From assembly GCA_024401435.1 (NCBI GenBank), contig JAKSLB010000034.1, positions 1 through 32,536 on the forward strand: a stretch of DNA of 32,536 nt. Direction: 5' to 3'. A program made the position numbers and the translations under genes. Position 1 is the first letter of the stretch; the number at the start of each line of letters is the position of its first letter. This document shows, one piece after another, positions 2,372 through 11,337 of this stretch. The stretch comes from Paludibacteraceae bacterium (GTDB lineage: Bacteria; Bacteroidota; Bacteroidia; Bacteroidales; Paludibacteraceae). The notes under the pieces were generated by a model. It ran no database searches and was not told the origin of the DNA. It saw only the letters and a list, made by a program, of their open reading frames with translations.

Positions 2372-3655
2372 TTAGATTATTTCAGCCACGACATAAGTGC
2401 TACCGCCAATGTAAATAAGATCGTTAGGGCCAGCATTTTTCTGAGCTGCATTTAAAGCGTCTTTAACGGTTGGATAACAAATTCCTTTTAATCCTTTTTC
2501 TTCTGCTAATCCTTTTAATTTTTCTTCTGACATGGCTCTCTTGATGGAAGCACGTGTGAAATAATATATGGCATCTTTGGGTAGTAACTCTAATACATGT
2601 GAAACGTCTTTGTCTCCGACCATGCCAAATATAATGTGAAGTTTTTCGTGAGGCGTGTTTCGTAGTTGGTTGGCAACATAGGAGATTCCTCCTACATTGT
2701 GACCTGTGTCACATACTGTATAAGGATTTCTGTTTAGTATTTGCCATCGACCTAACAAGTGAGTATTGGAGATGACATTCTTAAATCCGTTTTGAATTTC
2801 CTCTTCTGACATATCAATCTTTTCAATAACGCGGATAAGATTGAATGCTATTCTACAAGTTGTCATGTTTTTGATTTGATAGTCACCCATTAGAGGTGTT
2901 GGTGTTATCTCTTCTCCAACTTGAAAATATTGGTAAGGAATACCGTCGATTGTCTTTTCGTATTTTTTTTCTACGTGAGTGTCATCTGCGAAGAATATAG
3001 GTGCATTCATTTGATGCGCTTTGTCAAAGAAGATGCGACGGATTTCGTCTTTCGATTCTCCGATAACAATAGGAGTGGCTTGTTTGATGATTCCCGCTTT
3101 CTCTCTGGCAATGTCAGCTTCCGTATTACCTAATATGTTTTGATGATCAAGACTGATGTTGGTGATGACACTGATAATGGGTTGAATAATATTCGTGCTA
3201 TCTAATCGACCGCCCAAGCCAACTTCTATGACAGCATAGTCCACTTTTTCCTGACGAAAATAGTCCATAGCCATTCCGAAACTGACTTCGAAAAACGAGG
3301 GGAAGGACTCTTCGAAAAAAGTTTTATGTTTCTCAATAAACTCAATAACAAATTGTTGAGGTACCATTTCCCCATTAACACGAATGCGCTCGCGAAAATC
3401 TTTTAAGTGAGGAGAGGTAAATAAACCTACTTTGAAGCCCTTCTGTTGAAGGAGTGAGGCTAAAGTATGAGAACAGGAACCTTTCCCGTTGGTTCCTCCT
3501 ACGTGAATGCATTTGAATGAATGGTGAGGATTGCCTAATCGGTTGTCGAGAGCAATCATACTATCTAGCCCTTCTTTGTAGCCAGATTTACCCACCATTT
3601 GGAATAGAGGCATACGACTGTATATGTATTCCACGGTTTCGTCGTAATTCATCAT
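2372..3655 (-). CDS. folC: Bifunctional dihydrofolate synthase / folylpolyglutamate synthase
   Basis: 427 aa, the usual length of FolC. It adds glutamate to dihydropteroate and to tetrahydrofolates in folate biosynthesis and retention, in the cytoplasm. The Mur-ligase P-loop GTNGKGS is near residue 55. It is followed by the LFTSPHL and RIRVNG segments, the central-domain EVGLGGRLDSTN stretch and the C-terminal CDTGHNVGG, which corresponds to the family's D-x-x-HN region. The coding start has two adjacent ATG codons; the outer one is used here, but the inner one would change a single residue. It is transcribed divergently from phoH across about 125-150 bp and converges on the pgpH-like gene. 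metF, another folate gene, lies elsewhere in the window and is not linked. Confidence 0.95.
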   Translation of the reverse strand: MMNYDETVEYIYSRMPLFQMVGKSGYKEGLDSMIALDNRLGNPHHSFKCIHVGGTNGKGSCSHTLASLLQQKGFKVGLFTSPHLKDFRERIRVNGEMVPQQFVIEFIEKHKTFFEESFPSFFEVSFGMAMDYFRQEKVDYAVIEVGLGGRLDSTNIIQPIISVITNISLDHQNILGNTEADIAREKAGIIKQATPIVIGESKDEIRRIFFDKAHQMNAPIFFADDTHVEKKYEKTIDGIPYQYFQVGEEITPTPLMGDYQIKNMTTCRIAFNLIRVIEKIDMSEEEIQNGFKNVISNTHLLGRWQILNRNPYTVCDTGHNVGGISYVANQLRNTPHEKLHIIFGMVGDKDVSHVLELLPKDAIYYFTRASIKRAMSEEKLKGLAEEKGLKGICYPTVKDALNAAQKNAGPNDLIYIGGSTYVVAEII

Positions 3656-3808: not shown

Positions 3809-5137
3809 ATGGGCGCAAAGAAGAATTTCGTATTGGATACAAATGTTATCCTTCACGATTATAAGTGTATCTACAATTTCCAAGAAAATGATATTTATCT
3901 TCCAATTGCTGTATTGGAGGAGTTAGATAAATTCAAGAAAGGAAACGAGCAGATCAATTTTAATGCTCGTGAATTTGTACGTGAATTAGATAGTCTAAGT
4001 GTTGATGCAGATTTCTTTAAGAATGGTGCATCGTTAGGCGTTGGATTGGGAAAATTGTTTGTTGTGACAACTCCGATTTATCCTGAAATTCTGTCAAAGA
4101 CTTTCACGGAAAAGACCCCAGATCATCGTATTATGGCAGTTGCATTAGATATGCAACAGAACAATAAAAAGACACGTACTATTTTAGTGACCAAAGATGT
4201 TAATCTTCGTATGAAAGCTAAATCTATTGGCTTGGATGTGGAAGATTATATTAATGATAAAGTTACTAATATAGATGTTTTCGATAAAGCTCAAGAAACA
4301 TACGAGGATGTGGATCCGGATTTGGTAGATCGTATATATGCAGAATCTGGTGGTGTTCCTGTAACTGATTGCAAGTTACCAGCATCTTTGGCTCCAAATG
4401 AATGCTTTATTTTGAAGAGCTGCCGTTCATCTGTTATGGCAAAATATGAAGCATCCACACAAACGGTAAAGAAGGTAAAGAAAGAAAAAGCGTTTGGAAT
4501 TGAAGGTCGTAATGCGGAACAAACATTTGCATTAGATGTCCTTTTGAATCAAGATATCAAGTTGGTGGCCATCACAGGTCGTGCAGGAACAGGTAAGACT
4601 TTGTTGGCATTGGCAGCAGCTTTACAACAACACGAGGCTTATAAACAAATTTTGTTAGCTCGTCCGATTGTTGCCATGTCCAATAAAGATTTAGGTTTCT
4701 TGCCAGGAGATGAAAAACAAAAAGTGGCTCCTTATATGCAACCATTGTTTGATAACTTGAATGTCATTAAACATCAATTTTCTGCAAGTAGTAAGGAACT
4801 TCGTTTGTTGGATGATATGCAGAAAAATGAGCAATTGGTGATTGAAGCATTGGCCTTTATTCGTGGTCGAAGCTTGAGTGATACTTATCTGATTGTAGAT
4901 GAGGCTCAGAATTTAACTCCACATGAGGTGAAAACAATCATCACTCGTGCAGGTGAAGGATGTAAGATTGTCTTTACGGGTGATGTTCAACAGATCGATA
5001 CTCCATATTTGGATATGCAATCCAATGGTTTGGTTTATATGATTGATAAAATGAAGGGACAAGAGTTGTTTGCTCACGTTAATTTGATCAAAGGTGAGCG
5101 TAGTAAATTGTCCGAATTGGCTAGCGTTTTATTATAA
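3809..5137 (+). CDS. phoH: PIN domain-PhoH family ATPase
   Basis: 442 aa from this start. The N-terminal PIN-like nuclease domain (residues about 5-150) begins with the acidic FVLDTNVIL motif and contains a later VTKDVNLRMKA segment. The PhoH-type P-loop ATPase domain (about 230-440) has Walker A GRAGTGKT near 256-263, Walker B LIVDEAQN and the FTGDVQQID sensor motif. By family knowledge these fusions (YlaK/PhoH2 type) act as RNA helicase-ribonucleases; the cellular role here is not shown. An in-frame ATG lies 9 codons upstream at 3782. I prefer 3809 because remembered Bacteroides homologues begin with MGAKKNFV-like sequence and an A-rich leader precedes it. A strong hairpin terminator follows directly. 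Confidence 0.9.
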   Translation: MGAKKNFVLDTNVILHDYKCIYNFQENDIYLPIAVLEELDKFKKGNEQINFNAREFVRELDSLSVDADFFKNGASLGVGLGKLFVVTTPIYPEILSKTFTEKTPDHRIMAVALDMQQNNKKTRTILVTKDVNLRMKAKSIGLDVEDYINDKVTNIDVFDKAQETYEDVDPDLVDRIYAESGGVPVTDCKLPASLAPNECFILKSCRSSVMAKYEASTQTVKKVKKEKAFGIEGRNAEQTFALDVLLNQDIKLVAITGRAGTGKTLLALAAALQQHEAYKQILLARPIVAMSNKDLGFLPGDEKQKVAPYMQPLFDNLNVIKHQFSASSKELRLLDDMQKNEQLVIEALAFIRGRSLSDTYLIVDEAQNLTPHEVKTIITRAGEGCKIVFTGDVQQIDTPYLDMQSNGLVYMIDKMKGQELFAHVNLIKGERSKLSELASVLL

Positions 5138-5236: not shown

Positions 5237-5398
5237 TTGTTTTGATGTATGTGATGGTGTTGCCGTGATGGACAATGGGTTAGTTGTGGTGTTTGAAAAT
5301 TCATAAGAATATACGTTGCCATTATCCTCTGTTTCTATTTGTACGTTATTGTACGGTGCGAGTTTTTTATTATTATCATTCCATTCATTTTTCTGCTT

Positions 5399-8300
5399 AT
5401 GAAAAAGACTGTATTGACAAGATTCGTATGTTTGACACTTTTATGTATCTTCTCTTCTTTTGTGCAAGCTAAGGTTAGCATTACAGAGATTATGGCATAC
5501 AATGTATCCACTGTCATGGATACAATAAAGGATGGAAGTGGGAACGTAAAGGGAGGAACTGGTAATTTCCCTGGATGGGTGGAGTTTTATAATGACGGTG
5601 AAATTCCAATAAGTTTGAAGGGAAGTATCATTGAACAACGGAAAAAAAATGGTAACTTGAAGTGGTCATGGGAAATTAAAGAGGATTCTGGATTTGTGAT
5701 TGAACCCCAAAAATATCTCATCATTTATTTTGATAAACAAGGATCCACGGAAGCTTATAAATATGGACATTCTCCCTATAAGATAGATCCTGATGGTGGA
5801 TCCATCACCCTTATAATGTCAGGCTCGGATACGTATAGCCTGTCATACAAGAAGATGTATCCATATCTCTCTTATGGACAAAAAAATGACACATTGGGTT
5901 ATATGATACCCACACCAAGGAAAGCGAATAAAACAGCCTATCTTGATCTTGAGACATCCAGATGTGCAAAGCCTTATTTCCTTGGATTGCAGCCTGGAGT
6001 TTATTCTAGTATAGATAGCGTGATTCGATTGAGATGTGCTACAGATAGTGTGAAAATATATTATACAACTGATGGTTCTGAACCTACCGAAAGCTCTACC
6101 TATTATGATGGCGGTTTCGAACTTGGTGGTAGTAAGGGCGTTCGTGCTCGTGCATATAAGAAAGGAATGTTGCCAAGTGAAATTTTAACAGGCTCGTTTA
6201 TAGCTAGAGGAAAGTATCAATTGCCTATCGTTTCCATATTATGTGATGATAAATATTTGACGAGTGGAAGTATCGGTATTTATACGACAGGTTCCAATGG
6301 CATAAAAGGAGAAAAAAGTTGTTTGAGTGATGCGGCAAATTATAATCAGGATTGGACAAGAACAGCCAATATGGAGTATTTTAAAGAAGGGAAACAAAAA
6401 TTTTCACAAGAAGCAGATATTTCTATCATGGGCGGTTGCTCCAGGAAAGAAGCTGTGAAATCTTTAAAAATTTCTACAGGGAAAAAATATTGTGCAGATA
6501 CCTTCGCTTATAATCCATTTAAAGATGATAAGAATAAGAAAGCAAACAAATATGTGAGTTTCCAACTGAGAAACGGAGGAAATGCATATGAGGATAAATA
6601 TCTTTGCTTCCGTGATGGTTTCATGCAAGCCGTAGCTAAGGGCATGGGAAATATTGATTATCAGGGTTATGTGCCTGTTGGCTTTTATCTTAATGGAAAA
6701 TATAAAAGATTAATGGGTTTGAGAGAACGCACAAACAAGGATTTTGTCTATTCGAATTATGGATATGATGAAGATGAAATAGACGTAATTGAAATAACGG
6801 AAAGAGGCGTGGGTGCTACAGCGGGAGATCGTGTGATGTATGATAGAATGATTCAGTATGCGAGAAATAATTACAAATCTTCTGATTATCTTGAAAAAAT
6901 GAATGATTTTATGGATATGGACGAATATCTTAATTATATCATTTTTGAACAATTTATTGTAAATACGGATTGGCCAGGGAACAATTATAAAATGTGGCGA
7001 CATCGTTCTGGTGGACGATTTAGATGCATCTTGTTTGATACAGATTTCGGGTTGGGTCTTTATAAAGGAGATAAAACTATTTGTAGTGATGAATTCAATA
7101 TGATTGAATGGTGTGATGGAACGTCGTCTACGGTAGATTGGGGGAATAGAGATCCTAATGATGGATCAGGATTTAATTTTAAAACAATCTTATTCTCTAG
7201 TTTGATGAAAAACGAAGAGTTCAAACTGATGTTTGTGACTAAGTTCATGATTCATTTGAACAACACTTTGAACTATCGTAATTTTAACACAGTCGGATAT
7301 GAGTTTGCTAGTTCGGTAATGCCGGAGTATGAAAAGAGCTTTGGTCATGAGTTAGATACTACTTCGGAAAATTCTGCTTTCCGGAAAATGTTGCAATTCG
7401 CACAAGCCCGATATGATAATATTCCATCACATCTTGCTGCAGTGTTAAAAGATGTTTCTTCTGACAAGGTTAATTTGACGTTGTCTTGTAAAACGGATGA
7501 TAATAAGACTTTGCAAGTAGGGTATACTTTGAATAATGTTAATGTTGTAGGTCCTGATTATACGTTTAGAGGATTGAAGGGCATGAAAGTGAATATTGGT
7601 GCCAACTTGCCAGATGGATATGTAGTAAAAAAGTGGAAAGTTGGTGATAAAGAGTATGCGACACCAACCATAAGTCTGAATTTGAAAAGTGAGACATCTG
7701 TGACTTTGTATTTGAAGAAAGATTCAGATAAAACGCCAAAAATCTTTATTAATGAGATATGCTCTAAAAATTCAATTATGAAGGATGATATGGGAGAGAC
7801 TCCTGATTGGATTGAATTGTACAATGCTAGTGATACATTGATTGACGTGGCAGGATATTATATTACGGACGATTCGAAAAACCTTAAGTTGCATCAGATT
7901 GCAAAAGGATATTCTTCGACAATTATTCCTTCCAAAGGTCATCTTGTCTTGTATGCAGATGGCGGTGTGAAGGCAGGACCTTTACATATAGGCTTTAAAC
8001 TTTCTGATACGAAAGGGGAAACATTGACACTCTCTAAAATTGTTAATGATTCGTTGGTGACTGTTAATAGTGTTTCATTTACATCGGTAGGCGAAAATTC
8101 TTCTACGGGAAGAGTTACAGATGGTGCTTCCAAATTTACGACTTTTCATGTGTGTGATGATGGCTATAATACAGAAGCAACGCCTGGTTTAGCCAACGGG
8201 TCAATTGATTGTGATTCTATTATGAAAGCAAATACTTATGAAGTTACACTTGAAGCCGATTGGTCGTATACTCATTATTTCTTTAATAATGAGAAGGTTG

Positions 8301-9262
8301 GTCATCATTCATATTATACGACAAGAATTAGAAAGGGTGATACAATCACATTAGAACCAGATATTGACGATAAGAATTTTGTCTCTTGGAAATGTTCTGA
8401 AATCGTTCCTTATACCTATGATCTTTTGACGTCCCAAACAGAGTGGTCTTATTTCTATGATAGTATAGCACCATCTCAGAATTGGATGAAAAATGATTTT
8501 GAGGAAGGAGAATCATGGAAAAAAGGGAAGGGTAAGATGGGCTATAATACTCGATATGATACCGTTTCATATGATACAAAGTTAAATTATGGATCGAATG
8601 GCAGCAAAAAGTATTTAACAGCCTATTTCAGGGCATCGTTTAATTTCAATTCTAAACAGGCCGATTCCATTGTGTTGTCATTGATTTATGATGATGCTGC
8701 GGTCGTCTATTTGAATGGAAAAATGTTAGGAAGTTTCAATATGGATTCTGATTCAGTCATAACGTATTCCTCGAAACCTGCCAAATACATAGATGATTCT
8801 ACGGCTACGATTGTATTACAACCATCAGACTTAAAAGCTACAAATGTGTTGGCTGTTGAGATTCACCAAATAGATGGTGAAAGTTCAGATTTGACATTTA
8901 AATTAAATATGAAACAGGCTGGGGAGACGGATATGTTCTATGACAAGGTTGTTACTTTCGTGCCAACACGAGATGTGTCGTTCTATTTGACGACACAGGA
9001 TAAGGTTGATGTGAAAAATGCGGAAAAATCGGAGGATCCAGTGATTGTTTATCCTAATCCGACATCGGATTTTGTTCATATACAATCAGTTGATAATATA
9101 TCGTTCGTTTCGGTTTGTGATATGTTGGGTAGATGCTTGAAAAAAATAATGCCACAGACGAATTCTTGTCAGTTGGATGTGAAAAATCTCAAAGAAGGAA
9201 GTTACATTTTGCAAGTGGAGTCGGAATCAAAAGTTCTAAAACAAATATTGATTGTAAAATAG
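5399..9262 (+). CDS. Secreted CotH-kinase / lamin-tail-domain protein with T9SS sorting tail (copy 1)
   Basis: 1287 aa, counted from the ATG that gives a clean signal peptide (MKKTVLTRF..., cleavage after FVQA); an upstream ATG at 5339 would bury it. Domains in order: lamin-tail domain (about 26-160), chitobiase-C-type beta domain (195-255, IYYTTDGSEPT), CotH kinase (275-670), InlB-like repeat (695-775), second lamin-tail domain (781-930), another short beta repeat, a jelly-roll-like module (1010-1190, ending AVEIHQIDGESSDLTF) and a T9SS type A sorting domain (from about 1211, YPNPTSDF). Kinase landmarks are GGCSRKEAVKS, GLRERTN, TDWPGNN and LFDTDFG with D547/D549. Known CotH proteins are atypical secreted kinases that phosphorylate spore-coat or surface proteins. 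Here the expected site is the cell surface and the substrate is unknown. A paralogue lies at 15521-19378. Confidence 0.88.
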   Translation: MKKTVLTRFVCLTLLCIFSSFVQAKVSITEIMAYNVSTVMDTIKDGSGNVKGGTGNFPGWVEFYNDGEIPISLKGSIIEQRKKNGNLKWSWEIKEDSGFVIEPQKYLIIYFDKQGSTEAYKYGHSPYKIDPDGGSITLIMSGSDTYSLSYKKMYPYLSYGQKNDTLGYMIPTPRKANKTAYLDLETSRCAKPYFLGLQPGVYSSIDSVIRLRCATDSVKIYYTTDGSEPTESSTYYDGGFELGGSKGVRARAYKKGMLPSEILTGSFIARGKYQLPIVSILCDDKYLTSGSIGIYTTGSNGIKGEKSCLSDAANYNQDWTRTANMEYFKEGKQKFSQEADISIMGGCSRKEAVKSLKISTGKKYCADTFAYNPFKDDKNKKANKYVSFQLRNGGNAYEDKYLCFRDGFMQAVAKGMGNIDYQGYVPVGFYLNGKYKRLMGLRERTNKDFVYSNYGYDEDEIDVIEITERGVGATAGDRVMYDRMIQYARNNYKSSDYLEKMNDFMDMDEYLNYIIFEQFIVNTDWPGNNYKMWRHRSGGRFRCILFDTDFGLGLYKGDKTICSDEFNMIEWCDGTSSTVDWGNRDPNDGSGFNFKTILFSSLMKNEEFKLMFVTKFMIHLNNTLNYRNFNTVGYEFASSVMPEYEKSFGHELDTTSENSAFRKMLQFAQARYDNIPSHLAAVLKDVSSDKVNLTLSCKTDDNKTLQVGYTLNNVNVVGPDYTFRGLKGMKVNIGANLPDGYVVKKWKVGDKEYATPTISLNLKSETSVTLYLKKDSDKTPKIFINEICSKNSIMKDDMGETPDWIELYNASDTLIDVAGYYITDDSKNLKLHQIAKGYSSTIIPSKGHLVLYADGGVKAGPLHIGFKLSDTKGETLTLSKIVNDSLVTVNSVSFTSVGENSSTGRVTDGASKFTTFHVCDDGYNTEATPGLANGSIDCDSIMKANTYEVTLEADWSYTHYFFNNEKVGHHSYYTTRIRKGDTITLEPDIDDKNFVSWKCSEIVPYTYDLLTSQTEWSYFYDSIAPSQNWMKNDFEEGESWKKGKGKMGYNTRYDTVSYDTKLNYGSNGSKKYLTAYFRASFNFNSKQADSIVLSLIYDDAAVVYLNGKMLGSFNMDSDSVITYSSKPAKYIDDSTATIVLQPSDLKATNVLAVEIHQIDGESSDLTFKLNMKQAGETDMFYDKVVTFVPTRDVSFYLTTQDKVDVKNAEKSEDPVIVYPNPTSDFVHIQSVDNISFVSVCDMLGRCLKKIMPQTNSCQLDVKNLKEGSYILQVESESKVLKQILIVK

Positions 9263-9384: not shown

Positions 9385-9392
9385 TATATTTG
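9385..9392 (+). promoter_or_regulatory. Bacteroidota -7 element before the mini-lipoprotein operon
   Basis: TATATTTG matches TAnnTTTG exactly and is followed by C. It would give a leader of about 90 nt before the ATG at 9490. No good TTTG is seen at -33. The leader holds an 8-bp inverted repeat (ATAGATCC at 9426-9433 and GGATCTAT at 9469-9476) and a 16-codon ATG-to-TAA frame at 9434-9484. Confidence 0.5.
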
Positions 9393-9489
9393 CACGATTT
9401 TTGTAAGTCTTTTATTTGAATAAATATAGATCCATGAAGATGGAATGTATATATGAAAAAAATTTTCGGGATCTATTAAAATAAATAAT

Positions 9490-9669
9490 ATGATAAAAAA
9501 AATAGTTTTCATCTGCGCGATGACAATTTCTTTTGCAAGTTGTATTTCAATTAATGATTGTGAGTGCAAAGTAGAAGGTTCGGATACCTCTTTTGATCAT
9601 TATGATTATGAAGGCTCTTGCTCGGAATTGGATGAAGAAGAAGGTAACGTTACTTGTGTGGCAAGATAA
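9490..9669 (+). CDS. Small Cys-rich acidic putative lipoprotein (59 aa)
   Basis: I do not recognise a family. The N-terminus has a short Lys-rich start (MIKK), a hydrophobic core and ASC at residues 16-18, which can serve as a lipobox with lipidated C18, although Phe rather than Leu stands at -3. The remaining 41 residues are acidic, with four Cys (C24, C26, C44, C56), a DHYDYE cluster and an ELDEEEG patch. The stop is 15 bases before the MauE-thioredoxin gene, so the two are probably co-transcribed from the -7 element at 9385. The spacing, the secretion signal and the Cys content suggest a periplasmic or surface partner, or substrate, of the redox membrane protein; that link is inference. 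It is too short for most gene callers and may be missing from existing annotations. Confidence 0.65.
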   Translation: MIKKIVFICAMTISFASCISINDCECKVEGSDTSFDHYDYEGSCSELDEEEGNVTCVAR

Positions 9670-9684
9670 AAGACAGGAATCGTA

Positions 9685-10602
9685 ATGACAAGAGACACAT
9701 CTGATAAAATCTTTTATGGTTGTCGATGCTTGTTAGGTTTGATGTTCTTGATTTCAGCGATTTTAAAGTTTATATCAATAGGATCTTTTGAATCGTATGT
9801 TTTTTCTTTGGATTTTTTTAACCTGACAATGTCGTCTTATCTTTCCCGATGCTTATTGTTTGTTGAGGCTTCTTTGGGTTGTTTGCTGATAACAACTCTC
9901 TACAAAAAGGAAGTGGACATTCTCTCTTTCTTATTGCTTTTTTTATTTTCCAGTTTGCTAATTTATTTGGTAATTATTGGAGAAGAGGGGAATTGTCATT
10001 GTATGGGAGAGACATTTAGTTTTTCTCCGATTCAATCTTTACTGAAAAACCTATTGTTATTTATCCTGTTGTTTTTTGCTATGAAAAGCAAACCATTCCA
10101 ATTAAAATATCCTCGCATCATCTTATCGTTGATATTGCTTTCATCATTTGTTTTTTCCTTCGCTCAGTTACCCGTTGGGTTTGGCAATGAACGAGAGACA
10201 AAATTCAATGTTGAGGCATATGAAAAATTAGAACAGACACAGTCAGTCTTGCAGAATGTGAAAAAACAGGAGTTGTCGTTTGTCTGTTTTATGAGTGTGA
10301 AATGCAAGCATTGTAAATTGGCCATGCGCAAGTTGGAGGTTTGCTTGAAAGATGCGACTGTCCAACCTTGTGTGCAGTGGGTTGTGTGGGGTGATGAGGA
10401 AGGTATGAATGAATTTATAAAGGAAACAGGAGTTAAAATGCAATCCCACTTTTTTATGGATCCAGTGGATATGATGCCTATTACAGGGTATAATATTCCA
10501 TTGATATTGATTTTTAAGAAAGGGGAATTAGTGTCAAAAATGAGTAATGCGACATTTGATGATGAACTGTGTCGAAAGTTATTATCTGAACAAGTAAATT
10601 AA
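9685..10602 (+). CDS. MauE/DoxX-like redox membrane protein fused to a thioredoxin-like domain
   Basis: 305 aa. Five hydrophobic segments are visible (about 13-33, 51-72, 78-98, 120-134, 144-163). The loop after the third carries C104-H-C106 (GNCHCMGE), a hallmark of MauE-type redox-associated membrane proteins. Lys-rich loops after segments 2 and 4 place those loops in the cytoplasm, so the CHC loop and the C-terminal domain should both face the periplasm. Residues about 175-300 look thioredoxin-like: FMSVKCKHCK with C207-x-x-C210, and a late NIPLILIFKKGE segment resembling the cis-Pro strand. The expected role is thiol-disulfide exchange for an exported protein, analogous to MauE in methylamine dehydrogenase maturation. 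The natural substrate is unknown; the Cys-rich peptide encoded just upstream is the obvious candidate. hisA follows after 12 bases. Confidence 0.82.
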   Translation: MTRDTSDKIFYGCRCLLGLMFLISAILKFISIGSFESYVFSLDFFNLTMSSYLSRCLLFVEASLGCLLITTLYKKEVDILSFLLLFLFSSLLIYLVIIGEEGNCHCMGETFSFSPIQSLLKNLLLFILLFFAMKSKPFQLKYPRIILSLILLSSFVFSFAQLPVGFGNERETKFNVEAYEKLEQTQSVLQNVKKQELSFVCFMSVKCKHCKLAMRKLEVCLKDATVQPCVQWVVWGDEEGMNEFIKETGVKMQSHFFMDPVDMMPITGYNIPLILIFKKGELVSKMSNATFDDELCRKLLSEQVN

Positions 10603-10614
10603 AATTAAAAACAT

Positions 10615-11337
10615 ATGATAGAAATTATTCCCGCAATTGATATTATTGAAGGAAAATGTGTGCGTCTTTCGCAAGGCGATTATGCTCAAAAGAAAGTTTA
10701 TAACGAAAATCCTGTAGAGGTCGCAAAGGAATTTGAATCGGTTGGAATCCGTCGATTGCATTTGGTCGACTTGGATGGTGCGAAAGCACAACATATTGTT
10801 AATTACAAAGTGTTGGAATCAATTGCGACTCAGACCTCTTTGACCATTGATTTTGGTGGTGGTTTGAAAAGTGATGATGACTTGCGTATTGCATTTGAAT
10901 CAGGAGCCAAGATGATTACGGGTGGAAGTATCGCAGTGAAGAAACCTGAGGTATTCCTCTCTTGGTTGGATAAGTTTGGTGCGGAAAGAATTATCTTAGG
11001 AGCGGATGTGAAGGAAGAAAAAATAGCTGTAAGTGGATGGATTGAAACCACATCCTTAGATTTGCTTCCGTTTGTTCAAAATTTTGTCGATAAAGGTATT
11101 GATAAAGTGATATGCACAGATATCAGTAAGGATGGTATGTTGAAAGGTCCATCTGTAGAGTTGTACAAAAAAATATTGAAAGAAATTCCTTCTCTGTATT
11201 TGATTGCCAGTGGTGGAGTTAGTTCGATGAAAGATATAGAAGAGTTGAATGAAGCTAATGTTCCAGCAGTCATTACAGGCAAGGCAATCTATGAGGGAAG
11301 AATAAAAATGGAAGAAATAGCCTCTTTCTTGTTGTAA
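10615..11337 (+). CDS. hisA: HisA, ProFAR isomerase of histidine biosynthesis
   Basis: 240 aa, normal length. It is a (beta/alpha)8 barrel that isomerises ProFAR to PRFAR, the fourth step of histidine synthesis. The catalytic Asp pair is present: D9 in IIPAID and D131 in ILGADVKEE. The phosphate-binding signatures [25 protein letters not shown] and [10 protein letters not shown] are intact. It starts 12 bases after the MauE-thioredoxin gene and is followed 34 bases later by hisI. In many Bacteroidota hisF lies between hisA and hisI; here it does not. Confidence 0.97.

Follow-up and report, generated by a model that had tools for sequence, protein, structure and literature searches.

A cysteine-rich mini-lipoprotein paired with a MauE-thioredoxin fusion in Bacteroidales: a candidate disulfide-forming module of the cell envelope

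What does a gene of 59 codons, coding for a presumed lipoprotein with four cysteines in its tail, do 15 bases upstream of a gene for a MauE-like membrane protein fused to a probable thioredoxin-like domain (hereafter MauE-Trx)? The two genes lie in a 32,536-nucleotide stretch of DNA from a Paludibacteraceae bacterium (the window, taken here at its full length), and an earlier reading of this locus, the original prediction, proposed that their products are redox partners. We ask here whether the small open reading frame (ORF) is a gene, whether the pair is conserved, and in which direction electrons might pass between its members.

The two genes and their cysteines

The features on which the argument rests are listed below; genus counts refer to 16 genomes of the same genus and locus counts to the 80 Bacteroidales loci described in the next section.

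9385..9392, plus strand: TATATTTG, predicted Bacteroidota-type -7 promoter box before the lipoprotein gene (TAnnTTTG match)
9490..9669, plus strand: CxC mini-lipoprotein gene, 59 codons, upstream of MauE-Trx in 16/16 genus genomes
9490..9540, plus strand: signal peptide, residues 1-17, up to the lipobox S-F-A-S, as read from the sequence
9541..9543, plus strand: codon of C18, the presumed site of lipid attachment, invariant in 16/16
9559..9567, plus strand: C24-E-C26 (CxC), each Cys invariant in 16/16
9619..9621, plus strand: C44, invariant in 16/16
9655..9657, plus strand: C56, invariant in 16/16
9685..10602, plus strand: MauE-Trx fusion gene, 305 aa, its ATG 15 bases after the lipoprotein stop codon
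9706..10080, plus strand: MauE domain, residues 8-132 (PF07291, 59.3 bits, cut-off 27)
9994..10002, plus strand: C104-H105-C106, in the loop that follows segment 3 and is predicted to be periplasmic, both Cys invariant in 16/16 genus genomes and 80/80 loci (the latter partly by construction, since one of the two patterns used to find the loci contained NCHC)
10252..10593, plus strand: thioredoxin-like domain, about residues 190-303, with weak profile matches to solved Trx-fold proteins
10303..10314, plus strand: C207-K-H-C210, presumed active-site motif, both Cys invariant in 16/16 genus genomes and 80/80 loci (for CxxC, not by construction)

The product of the small ORF has a basic start (MIKK), a hydrophobic run and the lipobox-like SFAS-C18, and the 41 residues past C18 contain C24, C26, C44 and C56. 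The lipobox-like motif and the invariant C18 suggest a bacterial lipoprotein, its lipidation being presumed from the sequence. The pattern of a lipobox followed by C..CxC..C..C is passed by one of the 211 ORFs of at least 35 aa in the window and by none of 21,356 ORFs found after mononucleotide shuffling of these 80 loci. In the genus, where the 16 lipoproteins were chosen by position and not by their cysteines, C18, C24, C26, C44 and C56 are invariant in all 16, as are D23, D39, E41 and L47. Additionally, dN/dS of the ORF was 0.06-0.34 in nine of 14 chosen pairs (out of 120 possible), values that are rough because several dS exceed 1.5; among the other five pairs, one had no amino-acid change and four were undefined (three saturated, one identical). 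Judged by these patterns, the small ORF is a genuine gene under purifying selection. TAnnTTTG, the form of TATATTTG, which we take to be the Bacteroidota-type -7 box, occurs at most 150 nt 5′ of the lipoprotein start in 13/16 genus loci and, since it precedes the lipoprotein gene there, this gene probably opens the transcription unit. The start of the feature in the original prediction, 9385, coincides with the first base of this predicted box.

We define CxC mini-lipoproteins as chains of less than about 170 aa with a lipobox Cys followed by C-x-C, C and C, a pattern that the window ORF shows. Neither Pfam nor NCBIfam gave a match to this ORF at E ≤ 1, and 47 of the 48 mini-lipoproteins scanned had no Pfam match at E ≤ 0.01. 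When a lipoprotein profile was compared with solved structures, one match was obtained (E 0.11), over profile positions 2-46 and, thus, starting inside the signal peptide. Two family assignments were tried and rejected: the PG1828 lipoprotein family (NF050142) did not match the window ORF, and the best of 10 relatives reached 22.0 bits over residues 1-41 for a cut-off of 50; the radical-SAM-associated lipoprotein family (TIGR04134) was likewise absent, NCBIfam having given nothing for the ORF at E ≤ 1.

PF07291 is matched not only by the window MauE-Trx protein but also by all 53 members of A3, a profile of diverse MauE-Trx relatives, at E ≤ 0.01. The window protein has five hydrophobic segments (residues 8-37, 51-74, 75-102, 111-134 and 142-167). 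By eye, lysine and arginine occur in loops 74-75 and 134-144, which are predicted to be cytoplasmic, and are missing from 38-50 and 103-117; from this confinement, both C104-H-C106 and C207-K-H-C210 are predicted to be periplasmic. Those four cysteines are the only ones invariant across the 53 A3 proteins. In the window protein, the C-terminal region has no Pfam match, thioredoxin families included, and is probably thioredoxin-like: of the 35 PDB sequences that A3 matched at E ≤ 1, 33 are Trx-fold proteins going by their names, each match being weak in itself (best E 0.002), and P272, the presumed cis-Pro, is invariant along with C207 and C210.

The original prediction thus had the 59-codon ORF, the four Cys in a 41-residue tail, the 15-base gap, C104-H-C106 and C207-x-x-C210 where we find them, and its five-segment MauE-like protein is borne out by the hydrophobic segments and the PF07291 match. 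Its periplasmic placement of both Cys motifs is supported, as a prediction, by the distribution of K and R. The fused thioredoxin-like domain that it described gains from the PDB profile matches, but these are faint one by one and are not joined by a Pfam match.

Linkage and co-occurrence across Bacteroidales

MauE-Trx is present in all 16 genus genomes, with a short lipoprotein ORF just 5′ of it in every one and with outer 5′ neighbours that vary. In the window, the stretch upstream (5339-9262) codes for a 1307-aa protein with CotH-kinase and lamin-tail domains and a type 9 secretion tail; the next ORF after the pair (10615-11337), hisA by reading, begins 12 bases after the MauE-Trx stop; and a 99-aa ORF at 13379-13678 matches DUF4834 below threshold (20.5 bits for a cut-off of 27.8). 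A hisA homologue lies 3′ of MauE-Trx in 14 of the 80 loci, which are genus members by their identity values, so that synteny contributes within the genus. Across 300 genomes of the family, MauE-Trx was found in 46 at E ≤ 1e-20 and matches to the genus lipoprotein profile in 32 at E ≤ 0.001; in 30 of these 32 the match adjoins MauE-Trx, the exceptions (G051 and G256) being weak matches in long frames.

The wider set comprises the best 80 of 113 confirmed Bacteroidales loci, of which 15 are the other genus genomes again, as judged by identity values, and a few others are shared with further samples (e.g., L096 and L035). An upstream lipoprotein ORF was seen in 71 of the 80, 68 by a script pattern and three by eye (L102, L140 and L156). 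This script pattern marked two or more upstream ORFs in 20 loci and, elsewhere, only four of 4072 ORFs. In two loci (L120 and L147) the lipoprotein gene is convergent with MauE-Trx, and seven (L108, L109, L124, L126, L131, L152 and L158) have no neighbouring lipoprotein. A tree was built from 81 MauE-Trx proteins; it has some long branches and unsure deeper joins. In it, these seven, the two convergent loci and L107 form one 10-row clade (100/100), and all 71 rows outside it, the window included, have the upstream gene. L107 carries identical mini-lipoproteins at 4068-4271 (minus strand) and 2445-2648 (plus strand), on either side of one MauE-Trx gene, which suggests a recent duplication or an assembly effect.

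Among 44 further family and order loci (L035-L048 and L159-L188), the script found the MauE-Trx frame in 35. A looser lipoprotein test was passed next to 23 of these frames, 20 of them convincing by eye (not L164, L166 or L185), and 12 had no adjoining lipoprotein under the same test; several of the 12 belong to genomes with unlinked copies (G498, G300, G566, G624 and G375). Outside the order, MauE-Trx was found at E ≤ 1e-40 in seven of 163 phylum genomes besides that of the window; one of these loci (L211, same class) has a lipoprotein with the same Cys pattern that ends 19 nt before the longest MauE-Trx frame, and no such lipoprotein was seen near the other six. Linkage between lipoprotein and MauE-Trx is, therefore, common and not universal.

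Do the two genes also occur together when they are apart? A3 matched 49 of 393 order genomes at E ≤ 1e-50, mostly near full length (the G657 match is partial, and that in G602 is split in two), and 326 in all at E ≤ 1e-15, many across the membrane part only. A4 is a lipoprotein profile built from copies near MauE-Trx, with the window sequence included; since its members were selected by their five Cys, the invariance of these in A4 is by construction. Among the matches listed, A4 at E ≤ 1e-6 was found in 38 of the 49 MauE-Trx genomes vs. four of the 344 others, a comparison in which the way A4 was built favours genomes carrying MauE-Trx; among these four, G478 does have a MauE match, though a weaker one (4.6e-27). 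From 11 of the 49 A4 was absent at this threshold, and another profile, A5, recovers four of them at E ≤ 2.1e-6. Again among the matches listed, 70 A4 matches fall in MauE-Trx genomes, 34 of them no more than 1.2 kb from that gene (27 genomes, 16 families): 27 upstream, three downstream, three divergent and one convergent. That the orientation relative to one partner varies speaks for function and not for a frozen operon. The remaining 36 are unlinked to MauE-Trx and occur both in tandem groups and singly. Genomes hold up to six lipoprotein relatives at E ≤ 1e-5, copy numbers that are lower bounds as at most 14-15 candidates per genome were scored with A4 and A5.

As A4 derives from lipoproteins near MauE-Trx, the comparison was repeated with A5, a profile from 12 lipoprotein copies away from it. 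At E ≤ 1e-7, A5 matched 28 of the 393 genomes, all 28 with strong MauE-Trx (21 of 21 when the seven seed genomes are left aside), and none of the 344 without it; 21 of the 49 MauE-Trx genomes had no A5 match at this threshold. Exceptions without strong MauE-Trx number two at E ≤ 1e-6 (G398 and G605) and six at E ≤ 1e-5. Counted by hand, 13 of 22 families with MauE-Trx have A5 matches vs. none of 91 others (Fisher test), although such tests treat genomes and families as independent, ignoring phylogeny, so that significance is overstated.

The window genome itself holds a second CxC mini-lipoprotein on another contig (L199:4534-4749), unlinked to MauE-Trx, flanked by an ORF that looks pheT-like by eye and by an apparently secreted one of 647 aa with no NCBIfam match at E ≤ 0.001. 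A4 matches this second copy (E 2.8e-10), and A5 matches it but not the window lipoprotein at E ≤ 1e-5; because of this miss, the window lipoprotein is tied to the A5 set through A4. Profiles A1 and A4 match the window lipoprotein and also contain it, whereas A5 does not contain it.

Around the unlinked lipoproteins, ten stretches were inspected and no neighbour was constant. A protein of about 700 aa adjoins unlinked copies in G375, G658 and G603, and two to four tandem mini-lipoproteins lie directly 3′ of it at L200:2204-5512, L202:3742-7102 and L203:1772-4454; the one from L200 (G375), the only one scanned, carries a type 9 sorting tail together with a partial match to metzincin. At L204:3768-5579 and L205:3414-4122, unlinked lipoproteins adjoin a putative lipoprotein of the radical-SAM-associated kind (TIGR04134, below cut-off); L204 also has a TIGR04133 radical SAM/SPASM gene above cut-off, and such a gene adjoins an unlinked copy in G498.

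In sum, the pair is real and widely conserved in gut and rumen Bacteroidales. The partnership put forward in the original prediction is upheld by linkage (16/16 in the genus and 71/80 loci upstream) and by the A5 co-occurrence, and the search that it proposed, for short Cys-containing ORFs upstream of MauE-Trx, found them conserved, with five Cys invariant in the genus and dN/dS values that indicate purifying selection; neither of the two outcomes that it named as refuting was obtained. The idea of one dedicated peptide substrate stands as regards the conserved pairing but not as regards its being single, as the relatives are several and often unlinked. Since several lipoproteins accompany each MauE-Trx, an enzyme with substrates is suggested, and the system looks like an enzyme with a client family rather than a one-to-one partnership.

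A candidate oxidising relay and its alternatives

Our preferred reading, to which we give a probability of about 0.5, is that lipoprotein and MauE-Trx would constitute a disulfide-forming envelope module, with a relay to a membrane acceptor and with all clients served. The lipoprotein would be exported, lipidated on C18 and would reach the periplasm with C24, C26, C44 and C56 reduced. The thioredoxin-like domain (C207-x-x-C210) would then draw electrons from these thiols, leaving disulfides in the lipoprotein, and pass them on to C104/C106 at the surface of the membrane, from where the MauE bundle would deliver them to a membrane acceptor, most likely menaquinone. One MauE-Trx per genome would serve the entire set of lipoproteins, linked or unlinked. 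We infer the contact between both proteins, the oxidising direction, the disulfide pattern and the use of a quinone from the sequences.

The direction is suggested by two residues. The second Cys follows a His in DsbA and protein disulfide isomerase (PDI), and the cis-Pro follows a Val in DsbA; thioredoxin and ResA have Pro and Thr, respectively, at these positions. In MauE-Trx, residue 209 is Y, F or H (C-x-[YFH]-C) in 78/80 loci, and the residue before the invariant P272 is hydrophobic in 78/80 and Thr in none. Oxidation is favoured because both are DsbA/PDI-like and not Trx/ResA-like, and these two sequence features, set against those comparators, suggest an oxidising relay analogous to DsbB/DsbA. 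DsbB (PF02600) and VKOR (PF07884) were each found in none of the 16 genus genomes, while the controls were positive in six and three of 14 genomes.

The opposite direction, in which MauE-Trx would hold the lipoprotein cysteines reduced, as DsbD/CcdA and TlpA do, and the lipoprotein would be a thiol shuttle or an envelope repair protein, strikes us as improbable, although linkage and co-occurrence fit it equally well and the PDB profile matches include ResA and other Trx-fold reductants. Two DsbD_TM matches in the window genome leave room for such a role. Nevertheless, no invariant cytoplasmic Cys pair exists among the A3 proteins to take electrons from inside; with all four invariant Cys predicted to be periplasmic, no DsbD-like path for electrons out of the cytoplasm is apparent. 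Moreover, the CxxC of MauE-Trx lacks the Pro typical of ResA/TlpA. Alternatively, the lipoprotein could itself be a redox carrier or disulfide donor, its CxC being charged by MauE-Trx so as to pass a disulfide, or form a covalent link, to envelope proteins. The invariant CxC would suit such a carrier, and a precedent exists in the Cys-x-Cys of SprF/PorG, envisaged in the available part of PMC12635249 as a strained disulfide attacked by GldK. However, C44 and C56 show the same invariance, in keeping with two internal disulfides, and several paralogues per genome with divergent loops suit clients over a common carrier; we regard this role as unlikely.

A metal or cofactor site, with MauE-Trx merely reducing the four Cys or aiding loading, is suggested by the presence of four Cys, including CxC, in so short a chain and by the acidic residues D23, D39 and E41, invariant within the genus. 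These residues vary across A4, however, and no constant metal-handling neighbour was seen at the part of the loci whose neighbours were read, so that we hold this explanation very unlikely. Finally, the two genes could be neighbours by descent, without functional link. The hisA synteny of the genus (14/80 loci) could alone explain the 16/16, but adjacency is found in 16 families and four relative orientations, the outer neighbours differ within the genus, and unlinked copies co-occur with MauE-Trx, all of which makes mere descent highly improbable.

If the disulfide-forming reading were extended, DsbB and VKOR might tentatively be joined by MauE-Trx as a third kind of membrane thiol oxidase, one that would drive disulfide formation in Bacteroidales without either of them and would have CxC mini-lipoproteins as its dedicated clients. 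The pair makes testable how Bacteroidales without detectable DsbB or VKOR form envelope disulfides, as it offers one enzyme, a recognisable group of short proteins as candidate clients and a clear-cut prediction for genetics. Additionally, the co-occurrence rule predicts which genomes carry mini-lipoproteins, nearly all of those scanned being without Pfam match.

Relation to known systems

Both DsbB-DsbA and bacterial VKOR-Trx combine a helical membrane domain that carries a periplasmic Cys pair with a periplasmic Trx-like domain. By analogy, MauE-Trx would have the same layout, as DsbA and DsbB in one chain; by contrast, its membrane part has CxC and not the CxxC generally described for DsbB and VKOR, and neither of these families is among the Pfam matches of the window protein at E ≤ 1. 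The BT_3928 family (NF045576) shares a related membrane half and was rejected as an assignment, as MauE-Trx reaches 47.9 bits over residues 13-159 for a cut-off of 250.

In Flavobacterium johnsoniae, the Cys-x-Cys of SprF and PorG has been envisaged as a strained disulfide whose attack by GldK leads to an inter-protein link (PMC12635249, in the part available). The likeness lies in a conserved periplasmic CxC in Bacteroidota and in disulfide exchange; unlike the mini-lipoproteins, SprF and PorG belong to the gliding and type 9 secretion machinery, and PMC12635249 contains no mention of MauE, DsbA, DsbB or thioredoxin. Fusions of glutaredoxin to MauE also exist, according to the accessible portion of PMC6315971, and lipidated RiPPs are described in PMC12636315, where the word MauE is absent. 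No report of the lipoprotein/MauE-Trx pair was found in the open-access PMC literature.

The maturation of methylamine dehydrogenase offers a functional analogy, and we do not assign the pair to that system. MauD is the thioredoxin-like partner of MauE, so that this system also joins a MauE membrane domain to a thioredoxin-like protein; here, by contrast, a single chain carries both MauE and the Trx-like part, and a lipoprotein of 59 residues is the presumed client. MauE has been speculated to help disulfide formation in the beta subunit of the enzyme (PMC7794033, in the part available). According to the same part of that paper, MauE, and in one family also MauD, is found in Streptomyces RiPP candidate clusters from decRiPPter beside a predicted precursor with at least eight Cys. 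MauE next to Cys-rich precursors is, consequently, already known, and the original prediction of a largely undescribed system stands for the Bacteroidales lipoprotein version, which is probably undescribed, but not for the general arrangement. In both cases a MauE homologue adjoins a Cys-rich small protein, although the Streptomyces clusters belong to another phylum and their precursor is not termed a lipoprotein in the available part of PMC7794033. In contrast to those clusters, the linkage described here extends over 16 Bacteroidales families, and the co-occurrence reaches unlinked copies.
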